DNA from: a virus | Reading direction: 5' to 3' (one strand) | Length of the DNA: 44,103 nucleotides | Virus record (IMG/VR): IMGVR_UViG_3300020215_000080 | Coordinates: 1 to 44,103 of that record | Shown here: in pieces, positions 834 to 15,983 of the stretch | Numbering within the stretch: position 1 is the stretch's first letter | Layout of the letters: the number at the start of each line of letters is the position of its first letter | Program-made: the position numbers and the translations under genes | Notes under the pieces: model-generated | The model's database searches: none | What the model saw: only the letters and a program-made list of their open reading frames with translations | What the model was told of the DNA's origin: nothing

Positions 834-1180
834 TGCGGCCTCTTGGAAAGAAGTTCCCGCTCCGCGTCCAGGATCTGGACCGCGATGCGGGCCCAGGCGC
901 CGCCGGTCTCGAAGAGCCCGGCCTGGTAGGAAGCGGCGAGCCTCCGGAGCTCGCTCTCGTTCCATTCCACGAGCCTTCCCGACTCGTCGAGCTTGGCCAC
1001 CGTCCGCCCCTCGTGGTACACGGTGACCGCGACCGGCTTCTGGGGGAAGTCTAGGCGAATATCGGAGCTTCCGTCTACGCCGGGGACGATCACGTCCAAC
1101 CGTCCGACCTCGTCGCTGTCCTTCATTTCCGCCTCCGCAGCCGTCGCCATCATGATGAAAAAGACAAGGGGTAGGATCAC
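830..1180 (-). CDS. Secreted hypothetical protein (116 aa)
   Basis: The N-terminus MILPLVFFIMMATAAEAE is a typical Sec signal peptide with an AEA-type cleavage site, so the mature part should be periplasmic. The mature part has beta-strand-like segments (DIRLDFPQKPVAVTVYHEG) and a helical C-terminus. ATG at 1180 overlaps the TGA of the gp33-like gene. Function unknown; an envelope-acting phage protein is an inference from the signal peptide only. Confidence 0.65.
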   Translation of the reverse strand: MILPLVFFIMMATAAEAEMKDSDEVGRLDVIVPGVDGSSDIRLDFPQKPVAVTVYHEGRTVAKLDESGRLVEWNESELRRLAASYQAGLFETGGAWARIAVQILDAERELLSKRPQ

Positions 1181-1410
1181 AGGGGGAGCCTCGCGGTCTT
1201 CTCTATGAGGTTGAGGTCCTCGCAGTCGAGCTGCATCTTCGCCTTGAGCACGGCGTGCTGCTTGACGAGCGACGCCAGCACCTCGATCTCGATCCCCGTC
1301 CGCTCGTGGTAGATCATCACGGCCTCAAGGTAGTCGCACTTCGTTTCCCTGACCAGCTTCTCGATCTCCTCGTAGAACTGGGAGGGCTGCAGCATCGTTT
1401 TGATGTTCAT
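1177..1410 (-). CDS. 33: gp33-like late-transcription coactivator (77 aa)
   Basis: Resembles the short gp33 proteins of T4-like cyanophages, which bridge host RNA polymerase, the sliding clamp and the late sigma factor. Visible features are an N-terminal helix around FYEEIEKLV (12-20), the central YLEAVMIYHERTGIEIE (27-43), a helix ending in LKAKMQ, and the tail LNLIEKTARLPL typical of the family. The start at 1410 lies 7 nt after the CCA end of tRNA-Gly; an in-frame upstream ATG would lie inside the tRNA. The match is from memory of the family pattern; another small phage transcription factor is possible. Confidence 0.6.
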   Translation of the reverse strand: MNIKTMLQPSQFYEEIEKLVRETKCDYLEAVMIYHERTGIEIEVLASLVKQHAVLKAKMQLDCEDLNLIEKTARLPL

Positions 1411-1417
1411 GCGGTGA

Positions 1418-1491
1418 TGGAGCGGGCGGCGGGAATCGAACCCGCACATTCGACTTGGAAGGACGCTGCTCTGCCACTAAGCTACGCCCGC
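1418..1491 (-). tRNA. tRNA-Gly (anticodon TCC)
   Basis: Full cloverleaf with acceptor GCGGGCG/CGCCCGC, D arm with AGTGG, loop CTTCCAA (anticodon TCC), T arm GCGGG-TTCGAAT-CCCGC, discriminator T and an encoded CCA. The anticodon stem GCGTC/GTCGA has two mismatches (T-T and G-A), unusual for a functional tRNA. It precedes the gp33-like gene directly and may be cut from the same transcript. Confidence 0.85.
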
Positions 1492-3329: not shown

Positions 3330-3403
3330 TGGCACCGGCTCTAGGAATCGAACCCAGGTCATCTGTTTTGGAGGCAGAGGTCCTACCACTGAACGAAGCC
3401 GAT
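3330..3403 (-). tRNA. tRNA-Trp (anticodon CCA)
   Basis: Acceptor ATCGGCT/AGCCGGT (one T-G pair), D stem GTTC/GGAC with loop AGTGGTA, anticodon loop CTCCAAA with anticodon CCA, T arm CTGGG-TTCGATT-CCTAG, discriminator G and encoded CCA. The anticodon stem has one C-A mismatch beside the loop. Its 5' end follows the coding piece of the tmRNA by only a few bases, so RNase P cleavage here would also release the tmRNA 3' end. Confidence 0.9.
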
Positions 3404-3404
3404 A

Positions 3405-3700
3405 AGAAACAGGTCCGGGATTCTGTTGCCAGGCTCCCGGGGGCCCCGAGTCTCTTCAATCCTTAGGCCGCGAGGGCCACCGGAGCGAAGTTGTCGTTGT
3501 CAGCCTTGAGGTTGACATCTATCGCAGTTCCAGGATGTATCGGTCCCGACCCGGTTTCTCGATGTGCCCTTCGCCGTCAATCGATCCCAGTTCACCCCCT
3601 CAGAAAAAACTGTCGGGAGATGGTGGAGGTGGGCGTATTCGAAACGCCGTCTTGTCCAACTACAAACACATGTCAGCGAAACGAAGCTAATTTATACGAC
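3405..3700 (-). ncRNA. ssrA: Circularly permuted (two-piece) tmRNA
   Basis: Rescues stalled ribosomes by acting as tRNA and as template for a degradation tag. Gene order is permuted. The acceptor piece comes first: T arm GGCGT-TTCGAAT-ACGCC (3648-3632), CACCTCC, A, CCA ending at 3621. A 21-nt spacer (3620-3600) follows. The coding piece starts at 3599 with GGGGGTG, which pairs with CACCTCC (one G-U), then AACTGGGATCGATTGACGG, closely matching the tmRNA 5' consensus. P2 can form from GGGCACAT (coding) and ATGTGTTT (acceptor). The tag frame (3504-3463) reads ADNDNFAPVALAA then TAA. A hairpin TTAGC/GCTGA precedes P2 in the acceptor piece. Outer ends are approximate. This is the two-piece form typical of Alphaproteobacteria. 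SmpB would be supplied by the host unless encoded elsewhere. Confidence 0.9.
3463..3504 (-). other. tmRNA proteolysis-tag reading frame (ADNDNFAPVALAA)
   Basis: Thirteen codons from GCT at 3504 to GCC, then TAA at 3465-3463. The ALAA end is the usual ClpXP/ClpAP recognition terminus and NDNFA is the conserved SspB/ClpA-type segment in proteobacterial tags. The exact resume codon is inferred; the frame stays open further upstream. Confidence 0.88.
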
Positions 3701-3724
3701 ACACAAAAAAAGTACAACGGTTTT

Positions 3725-4176: not shown

Positions 4177-4697
4177 CTCGCCTCCGGATCCTGCCACTGC
4201 GTATGGTGCCGCATCAGGAGGTCGTCGTCGGGTCGTCCCCGGGGCCGCCTCTCCTTCTTGGTCAGCTTGGGGTAGACCGCGGTCGGCCCCTGCCAGTGCT
4301 TGCTCTTGGCGTCGATCTCGAGGGCGTGCTTCCTCCTCCTGTCCTGCTCCTCCCGGTGGCGCCTCGCGGCCTCGTCCGCCGCCCTGAGCTCCCGCACCTG
4401 CTCGCCGTACCACACCAGTGTTATGAGGACTGCGGCGCAGATCAGGAAGAAGTTGACGACGACGAAGGCGGCGTAGAGCCGGCTCTCGTGGCTCAGGCCG
4501 GTGAGGGTGATCAGCTTCACCACGGCCATCATGTAGCCGACGACCACGGCGAAGCCGACGCATGTCGCGAAGGCCCAGAAGACCGCCGAGCCGGCCCGGC
4601 TCCCGAGCTCGCGCCCGAGGATCCCGAGCGCCCTGACCCTGGGGTCCCTACAGAGGGAGTCCCACCTTCTTCTCAACCACTCCGGTGCGCCTCTCAT
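4173..4697 (-). CDS. Membrane protein with two TM helices (174 aa)
   Basis: Two hydrophobic segments (around GSAVFWAFATCVGFAVVVGY and LYAAFVVVNFFLICAAVL) are followed by a long charged helical tail rich in Arg, Lys and Glu. Start ATG 4697 was preferred because AGGAGG lies just upstream; ATG 4724 (183 aa) is the alternative. It overlaps the end of the cpYpsA gene by about 50 nt. Could be holin-like or an inner-membrane modulator; no family recognised. Confidence 0.6.
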   Translation of the reverse strand: MRGAPEWLRRRWDSLCRDPRVRALGILGRELGSRAGSAVFWAFATCVGFAVVVGYMMAVVKLITLTGLSHESRLYAAFVVVNFFLICAAVLITLVWYGEQVRELRAADEAARRHREEQDRRRKHALEIDAKSKHWQGPTAVYPKLTKKERRPRGRPDDDLLMRHHTQWQDPEAR

Positions 4698-5337
4698 CGT
4701 CCTCCTGAGCCCTCCGAATCGCATCGAGCCTGTTCCAGTCGCCGTAGCCGAAGAAGACGCAGTCGAGGAACACCTGCACCTCGCGCTGGATGCCCGGCTG
4801 CCTCGACTCCCTGTTCCCCGCGACGTTCAGGATCCAGAAGTCGGGAATGAACGCGTTGACCTGCCTCCTGGCGGTCCGCAGGTCCTTCCGAGCATTGTTT
4901 ATCGCTTGGGCGAAATGCGCCGAGGGACCGTAGCCGGTCGTGCTGGACCAATAGACGTGGACATACGGCACCTTGAGCTCGATGCAGTACTTGATCGTCA
5001 GCTTGCAGCCCCTCGACCTCGGGTTGCCGAAGATCATCGTCACGCTCGAGGATTCCACGTTCATCCTGGTCCTCGGCGGGTAGGCCGACGAGTTGACCTG
5101 CTCGAGGCCGAACTCCTCCGCCAGGTCCTTCCTCATGCCGTCCTCGGCGCGGAAGTGCAGGGGCATGTAGCCGCCCGTCACGATCCCGCGCCTCTGGGCC
5201 CAGATCAGGGCGCCCCGGTCGGCCCCCGTCTGGCAGCCCGAGATGACCCGGGAGGGTATGTCCGGTCTCAGCTCCACTATGCGCTCGTTCCGGTACGACA
5301 CCCGGTTGAATTCCTCGACGGTCTCTCCATCCCTCAC
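4648..5337 (-). CDS. Putative molybdenum carrier / cpYpsA (SLOG-superfamily) protein (229 aa)
   Basis: Carries the signature of the circularly permuted YpsA (MoCo) family: SGCQTGADRGALIWA (33-47), GGYMPL...RAEDG (55-67), YPPRTRMNVESSSVTMIF (86-103) and RGCKLT (109-114), a Rossmannoid SLOG nucleotide-binding core. SLOG domains bind nucleotides and ADP-ribose-like ligands; bacterial and phage roles are mostly unproven. A C-terminal extension of about 90 residues has no motif I know. GTG at 5337 overlaps the stop of the ADP-ribosyltransferase-like gene, so the two are probably co-translated and functionally linked. Confidence 0.75.
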   Translation of the reverse strand: MRDGETVEEFNRVSYRNERIVELRPDIPSRVISGCQTGADRGALIWAQRRGIVTGGYMPLHFRAEDGMRKDLAEEFGLEQVNSSAYPPRTRMNVESSSVTMIFGNPRSRGCKLTIKYCIELKVPYVHVYWSSTTGYGPSAHFAQAINNARKDLRTARRQVNAFIPDFWILNVAGNRESRQPGIQREVQVFLDCVFFGYGDWNRLDAIRRAQEDDERRTGVVEKKVGLPL

Positions 5338-6050
5338 GCGGCCTCCTTCTTTCTCGGCGGCAGCTCGGTGACCGAGACCACCCGCACCCTCTCGGCGACG
5401 ACTTCGTCCTCGTTCCTTCCCAGGAACACGGCGAGCACGTCGTTGATGTTGACCCGCCCGTGGACGAGAAGGGGCTTCCGTCCCTTCCTCAGCAGTCGGT
5501 GGGCGAACCACTCCGCCCGCTTCCTGTCGAGGGTCCACGAAAGCCCCCTCGCCCTCTTCTTCATCTGCACGCCCCTCCAGACGTCGATCACGTCGGGGAG
5601 GGACTCGAGCCTCTTGAGCTCCTTCTCGTTCATCACCGCCTCGCGGCCCTCGGTCCGCTCGGACCACACCCGCCGCCACCTGTCCTCGTGCTGGAAGATG
5701 TTCTCGGAGTCGACCCACACCTCGCCGACGAGCCGCCAGTACTCCCGGCCGGACAGGCCCATCGCGCGGTACTCGAGGAGCTTCTCGAGCCGGTAGGGCC
5801 GCTCGTGGAGGAACAGGGCCGAGCCCCACTTCTTCTCCGCCAGCGCCCTCGCGACCATCCGGGACTTGACCCGGTAGCTCTCGTTGTAGACCGCGCACCG
5901 TTTAGGGTCGATCATCAGGTGGATCAGCAGCGGGTGGTGGAGCGTCCAGCCGAACGTCCCCTCGTGTATGTGGCCCGCGAGCTCGGGGATCGCCTCCTCC
6001 TCCTTGTGGAGGAGCTCGGACCACTTGCTGACGAGCTTTTCGTCGCTCAT
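5334..6050 (-). CDS. ADP-ribosyltransferase-like protein (238 aa)
   Basis: The C-terminal half has the R-S-E order of ADP-ribosyltransferases: VWRG (R159), GLSWT (S171), and RNEDEVV (E214-D-E216, an ExE signature) after a beta strand ending VLAVFLG. The N-terminal half is helical and unrecognised. If active it would transfer ADP-ribose from NAD+ to a host target, as T4 Alt/ModA do, though sequence similarity to those is not evident. It is coupled to a downstream cpYpsA/SLOG gene that could bind an ADP-ribose-type ligand. The fold call rests on three short motifs. Confidence 0.5.
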   Translation of the reverse strand: MSDEKLVSKWSELLHKEEEAIPELAGHIHEGTFGWTLHHPLLIHLMIDPKRCAVYNESYRVKSRMVARALAEKKWGSALFLHERPYRLEKLLEYRAMGLSGREYWRLVGEVWVDSENIFQHEDRWRRVWSERTEGREAVMNEKELKRLESLPDVIDVWRGVQMKKRARGLSWTLDRKRAEWFAHRLLRKGRKPLLVHGRVNINDVLAVFLGRNEDEVVAERVRVVSVTELPPRKKEAA

Positions 6051-15394: not shown

Positions 15395-15555
15395 TTCGTC
15401 TCCTGTTTCCATTCGATGTCCTCGTCGGCAAAGTAGGCGTGGCCCCAACCGCAGTGGACCATATGCCAGACCCACGCCACCCCGTTGTGGGTGCGCTCCA
15501 CCTCCACCAGCTCGTCGCAGGTGGGACAGCGGGCGTACGGTACGGGTCTAGCCAT
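15391..15555 (-). CDS. Small zinc-finger protein (54 aa)
   Basis: CPTCDE and later HCGWGH residues can form one zinc site. A short clean frame from ATG 15555 to TGA 15391, overlapping the next start, in the same coupled series. Function unknown. Confidence 0.6.
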   Translation of the reverse strand: MARPVPYARCPTCDELVEVERTHNGVAWVWHMVHCGWGHAYFADEDIEWKQETK

Positions 15556-15691
15556 CGTCCTCTACGTCGTCCTCCGTGTGGTAGTAGTACTCGACGAGCG
15601 TGTCCACGGCCTCGTGGAGCAGGTCGTCCTCGATCTCCTCGTCGCCGTTCAGCCACTTCTCAGCTATCGCAACCGCATCCAGGATCCTCAT
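15548..15691 (-). CDS. Very acidic small protein (47 aa)
   Basis: ATG 15691 to TAG 15548; helical N-terminus (LDAVAIAEKWLNG) and a tail with YYYHTEDDVEDD. Strong negative charge is compatible with a nucleic-acid mimic, but this is only composition. Starts 2 nt after the upstream stop. Confidence 0.55.
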   Translation of the reverse strand: MRILDAVAIAEKWLNGDEEIEDDLLHEAVDTLVEYYYHTEDDVEDDG

Positions 15692-15692
15692 G

Positions 15693-15983
15693 TCAGTCCA
15701 CCGTGTCCTTAGCCCGCGCCCACGCCTCGGGGATATAGAGAGCCGTCCCCGTCACCCTGACCCGCCACTGCTCGCGGAGGAACGCGCGTATCGCCACGTT
15801 GCTCAGCTCGGGGAACATGTAGTGGACCATCTCGTGGGCGACCCCGAGCTTGCCGTCCGCGATCATGCGCCTCACGGCGTCGCGGAACGTGCCCGAGTGG
15901 CAGATGAGCCTGCGGTTGCCGCGAGAGATGATGTCCCTCTCGCGGCGGTTCAGGTCTTCCGGCTCCTTCCTGCGCCTGGTCAA
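15693..15983 (-). CDS. Hypothetical basic protein (96 aa), TTG start
   Basis: TTG 15983 overlaps the TGA of the upstream gene (TTGA), the same device used at 24036. The protein has a basic start (TRRRKEPEDLNRRERD), a HEMVHYMF segment reminiscent of, but shorter than, a metallopeptidase HExxH motif (here HEMVH), then a C-terminal strand. HEMVH fits HExxH formally, but no third ligand is evident, so protease function is not claimed. Confidence 0.55.
   Translation of the reverse strand: MTRRRKEPEDLNRRERDIISRGNRRLICHSGTFRDAVRRMIADGKLGVAHEMVHYMFPELSNVAIRAFLREQWRVRVTGTALYIPEAWARAKDTVD

Follow-up and report, generated by a model that had tools for sequence, protein, structure and literature searches.

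An alpha-type circularly permuted tmRNA gene in a large, T4-related phage with a probable alphaproteobacterial host

The window (the whole 44,103-nt stretch of IMG/VR record IMGVR_UViG_3300020215_000080 that was analyzed) carries a circularly permuted tmRNA gene of the alpha type that looks intact and very probably yields a working rescue RNA. The phage to which it belongs is large and T4-related, and its host is probably an alphaproteobacterium. In Rfam covariance-model searches, positions 3721 to 3412 of the minus strand matched alpha_tmRNA (RF01849) with 65.4 bits (E value, 8e-16; curated cutoff, 50) and tmRNA_permuted (RF04321, supplied by PMC11915505) with 78.3 bits (E value, 1.8e-13; curated cutoff, 47), each over the full model length. 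A first-pass annotation had read a permuted tmRNA encoded by the phage itself, with a tag of the degradation type, on this strand and in this position and had proposed a covariance-model search as a check; it is borne out by the two matches, both above the curated cutoffs, together with the phage gene content. The main alpha tmRNA copies of bacteria mostly score 143 to 313 bits with RF01849, compared with 65 bits for the window copy, which is therefore divergent. ARAGORN detected two tRNAs in the window and missed the tmRNA, which indicates that this program, as used here, can overlook permuted tmRNA genes.

The acceptor piece, which includes the T arm and CCA, lies 5' of the coding piece, with the 21-nt spacer in between (Table 1), as the first-pass annotation had read it, and the two strands of the acceptor helix (GGGGGTG and CACCTCC in the DNA) pair at 7 of 7 positions, including G3-U70, the identity pair for alanyl-tRNA synthetase. 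G3-U70 is present in the window and in all 33 distinct phage acceptor/T-arm sets that passed the filter, most of which had been selected by a pattern containing it. The P2 pairing consists of the short helices CAA/UUG, AUGUG/CACAU, and GUUUC/GAAAC. Its presence, as claimed earlier, stands in that the pairs exist and match the family model, but when the two pieces are folded together, their stability does not exceed that of shuffled controls (z = -0.6), so support for P2 comes from the family model and not from energy. The pairing of the candidate PK1 pseudoknot was drawn by hand after the alpha-family pattern, and its second stem also appears in the minimum-energy fold.

Table 1. Features of the permuted tmRNA locus in the window
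Feature	Positions	Strand	Remarks
Acceptor (tRNA-like 3') piece	3621..3721	-	5' boundary provisional; RF04321 match begins at 3683, RF01849 match at 3721
T arm, GGCGU-UUCGAAU-ACGCC	3632..3648	-	5-bp stem, 7-nt loop; Rfam match and part-by-part reading
Acceptor-stem 3' strand, CACCUCC	3625..3631	-	A 3624 and the encoded CCA 3623-3621 come next
Intervening spacer	3600..3620	-	21 nt; removal by tRNA-type processing expected
Coding (mRNA-like) piece	3412..3599	-	3' end approximate; Rfam match
Acceptor-stem 5' strand, GGGGGUG	3593..3599	-	Opens the coding piece; G3 opposite U70
Candidate PK1 pseudoknot	3530..3553	-	CGG 3553-3551/CCG 3543-3541; UCGGGA 3549-3544/UCCUGG 3535-3530
Resume signal, AUAGAU	3517..3522	-	A at -4; weight-matrix scan
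Tag reading frame, GUC...UAA	3463..3516	-	VNLKADNDNFAPVALAA (probable); the 13 codons proposed earlier are its last 13
3' hairpin, CCGGGA-GCCUGGCAACAGAA-UCCCGG	3415..3440	-	Conserved alpha-type 3' element
tRNA-Trp (CCA anticodon)	3330..3403	-	Directly 3' of the tmRNA; same transcript likely; Rfam and ARAGORN
gp33-like late promoter transcriptional regulator (phrog_254)	1177..1449	-	1963 nt downstream of the tmRNA, same strand

The tag is probably VNLKADNDNFAPVALAA, with 17 residues and GUC 3516 as the resume codon, because the best resume signal lies in frame directly before this codon, has the expected base at -4, and lies close to the family distance from the candidate PK1. The weight matrix for resume signals was built from 47 distinct six-base signals, and since this training set was selected by an Ala-Asn tag start, the matrix is uninformative on the resume codon itself. 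AUAGAU before GUC 3516 scored 6.6, making it the top site of the whole coding piece, in the tag frame, and this score is matched by just 0.02% of window positions. In other permuted tmRNAs, both phage and bacterial, the -4 base is nearly always A; in one assay of the Escherichia coli RNA, no activity was left when its counterpart A86 was replaced by C or U, and little when it was replaced by G (PMC2481249). The site lies 13 nt past the candidate PK1, compared with about 11 nt in our own reading of the family consensus. GUC (valine) is an unusual resume codon, GCN being the usual one. The first-pass annotation had given a 13-codon tag, ADNDNFAPVALAA, ending in ALAA and a stop; its frame and its end hold, but its start is probably four codons short. 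Resumption at GCU 3504, which would give that tag, is less likely (CUCAAG, with C at -4, scored -4.5), and AAGGCU before GAC 3501 scored -1.3. The idea of a broken resume signal or a lost base was dropped, as a canonical in-frame signal lies four codons upstream of GCU 3504. The tag ends in NDNFAPVALAA, identical to the end of bacterial tmRNA tags. Some other phage copies have what appear to be much longer tags, which end in RLAA and share a core like ALGFADLTVGMS (loci L010, L019, L024, L064, L072, L077, L092, L097, L104, and L113), compared with the usual 10 to 14 residues.

The window is a phage fragment that encodes ribonucleotide reductase, a T4-type primase, exonucleases, PhoH, a RuvC-like resolvase, Rz-like spanins, glycosyltransferases, and a gp33-like late regulator; the best cultured matches of the ribonucleotide reductase are annotated as the cobalamin-dependent type. 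Taken protein by protein, the nearest cultured phages are T4-like cyanophages and phages of Roseobacter, Rhizobium, Sinorhizobium, Caulobacter, and Ochrobactrum, all with less than 60% identity, and a search for close phage relatives at the DNA level found none. An open frame at 4648 to 5898 (minus strand) contains a circularly permuted YpsA SLOG-family domain (PF12694; E value, 1.5e-26), and the protein at 5334 to 6050 had no relatives in viral_contigs. In a one-genome-per-species collection, NDNFAPVALAA was found in 15 contigs, all from Alphaproteobacteria and all in tmRNA genes. This tag end and the alpha type of the tmRNA suggest that the host is probably an alphaproteobacterium. The window copy shares with chromosomal alphaproteobacterial tmRNAs (RF01849) the permuted order, the acceptor helix with G3-U70, the 3' CCUGGCAACAGAA element, and the NDNFAPVALAA end, and differs from them in its far lower score, its shortened tail, and a tag five residues longer than the ANDNFAPVALAA form.

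The low score relative to bacterial copies would also fit a remnant, that is, a tmRNA fragment or decaying copy taken from a host, for example by integration next to ssrA, and now functionless; integration at ssrA is well known (PMC9004378, PMC11915505). We consider such a remnant quite unlikely, since all essential parts are intact (the acceptor helix with 7 of 7 pairs, T arm, CCA, resume signal, open tag, and 3' element) and since a deeply diverged, collinear relative retains the tmRNA with compensated pairs. This relative, IMG/VR contig 3300025679_000001 (175.8 kb), follows the gene order of the window at positions 17 to 44 kb (about 27 kb), with 65% identity in ribonucleotide reductase and 46% in primase. 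Its permuted tmRNA is likewise of the alpha type (RF01849, 101.5 bits), and a gp33-like gene comes 27 nt downstream. Its acceptor helix (GGGCCCG/CGGGUCC, compared with GGGGGUG/CACCUCC in the window) is changed at positions 4 to 6 on both strands and is nevertheless fully paired, with G3-U70 kept. The acceptor helix of the cultured Rhizobium phage RHph_I1_18 (GGGGAUG/CAUCUCC) is likewise altered yet paired, so the compensatory base changes that the first-pass annotation had looked to related phages for do occur. Counts of acceptor-stem pairing are partly circular, because full pairing was required for keeping a copy and many copies were found by the acceptor pattern, and the statistical test was therefore confined to the T stem, counted without filtering for pairing in 59 distinct phage copies picked by the acceptor stem only. 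The T-stem cells of these copies were paired in 85% of cases, compared with 33 to 40% in registers slid by 1 to 3 nt, and GC, CG, AU, and UA were all seen at the first two T-stem positions. The tmRNA shows deep retention with compensated base changes in a GC-rich, probably alphaproteobacterial T4-like phage lineage. The collinear relative differs from the window in its tag (ANDNVDMSNAALAA), its T loop (GGCAGUA), and its own structured spacer of 140 nt (L197 1640-1780, minus strand), which has a strong fold of its own (-52.9 kcal/mol), including a stem of about 9 pairs adjoining the acceptor helix, and matches no other Rfam family.

Phage two-piece tmRNAs as a kind are already known. The first-pass annotation had known of no characterized phage copy of the permuted form, which is contradicted by a report from 2022 (PMC9004378) as well as by RHph_I1_18 and over 100 IMG/VR contigs. 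In that report, the cultured phage Melnitz carries a two-piece tmRNA, and 53 two-piece structures are counted among 133 unique phage tmRNAs, mostly aquatic; a further study gives 79 tmRNA sequences from bacteriophages, all forms included (PMC11915505). At least 120 IMG/VR stretches match a single acceptor pattern, and the RF04321 cutoff was passed by 47 of the 49 records tested. Melnitz, a Methylophilales phage, and its marine relatives resemble the window phage: they are T4-like, and their permuted tmRNA, alphaproteobacterial in affinity, precedes a transcription coactivator gene. The window phage differs in being GC-rich, in its longer tag, and in the 1.96 kb between the tmRNA and the gp33-like gene, and unlike Melnitz it has no Rfam match to a glutamine riboswitch in the window. 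The window extends well-supported two-piece tmRNAs to GC-rich, probably alphaproteobacterial T4-like phages. In RHph_I1_18 (MN988519), a cultured phage of the alphaproteobacterium Rhizobium, the permuted tmRNA is of the alpha type (RF01849, 60.3 bits; RF04321, 60.1 bits) and lies at 15520 to 15713 beside a tRNA cluster, and the record already annotates it as "transfer-messenger RNA, SsrA"; it has its own 6-nt spacer and tag (ANDNSVQVRLAA), and its gp33-like gene lies 15 kb off. This cultured phage opens the way to bench testing of a phage two-piece tmRNA.

The order of the tmRNA and the gp33-like gene recurs beyond the window, where the true start of the latter is probably below 1449 because a tRNA-Gly covers 1418 to 1491. 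Among the other phage records with both genes, 25 of 29 have the gp33-like gene within 2 kb downstream of the tmRNA on the same strand (about 1.8 expected under random placement), as do 10 of the 14 records of at least 30 kb (0.26 expected), although nominal P values for this order overstate the evidence because many of the records are related. The remaining records comprise two contigs with beta-type tmRNAs, one record with a distance of 5 kb, and RHph_I1_18. The ssrA gene of Melnitz also lies upstream of a transcription coactivator (PMC9004378), and a limited search of the open literature found no statement of the order as a general pattern. A tentative reading is that phage two-piece tmRNAs have long been kept within the late-switch region of T4-like phages, upstream of a gp33-type coactivator in many lineages, rather than scattered host captures, and from this arrangement rescue and the late-transcription switch may be co-expressed. 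This offers a testable idea on the timing of the rescue RNA during infection and on why phages retain a tmRNA.

The sequence itself establishes the anatomy, the family membership, the retention in a relative, and the gene order; from it we infer a course of transcription, cutting, charging, rescue, tagging, and degradation in the infected cell. The tmRNA would be made as a single transcript, possibly with the tRNA-Trp and on towards the gp33-like gene; a scan for the sigma-70 consensus found no promoter- or terminator-like site. After excision of the 21-nt spacer and trimming of the ends by host tRNA-processing enzymes, the two pieces would remain joined through the acceptor helix and P2, and alanyl-tRNA synthetase would charge the acceptor piece by way of G3-U70. 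A search for smpB gave nothing, either in the window or in five larger phages with a tmRNA; the phage presumably relies on the SmpB of its host, with which the RNA would enter ribosomes stalled on broken mRNA. Reading would resume at GUC 3516, and the tag would mark the protein for host proteases. The likeliest benefit would be that ribosomes are kept free during the destruction of host mRNA and the shift of the phage to late transcription; the purpose put forward earlier, rescue under RNA decay or the use of a different tag, is possible. Action mainly against the host system, with an intact tmRNA competing for SmpB or ribosomes, serving as a decoy for them, or directing a different tag, would fit the divergent body, the 17-residue tag, the non-alanine resume codon, and the precedent of the tag-less phage tmRNA DS6A, whose expression in E. 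coli inhibited the endogenous tmRNA (cited in PMC11915505), but is less likely still, as the window copy, unlike DS6A, has a full tag frame whose C terminus is the same as in bacteria, which suggests ordinary degradation.

In one alphaproteobacterial genome (G226, contig 5, about 288.5 to 288.8 kb; L342 1010-1350, minus strand, and L372), a diverged permuted tmRNA of the alpha type (72.8 bits) is present as a second copy. It adjoins terminase, capsid, and adaptor genes and is either a prophage-like copy or phage sequence in the assembly. The terminase of this prophage-like region (L372 12201-14873, minus strand) contains a LAGLIDADG-like stretch, possibly an intein.
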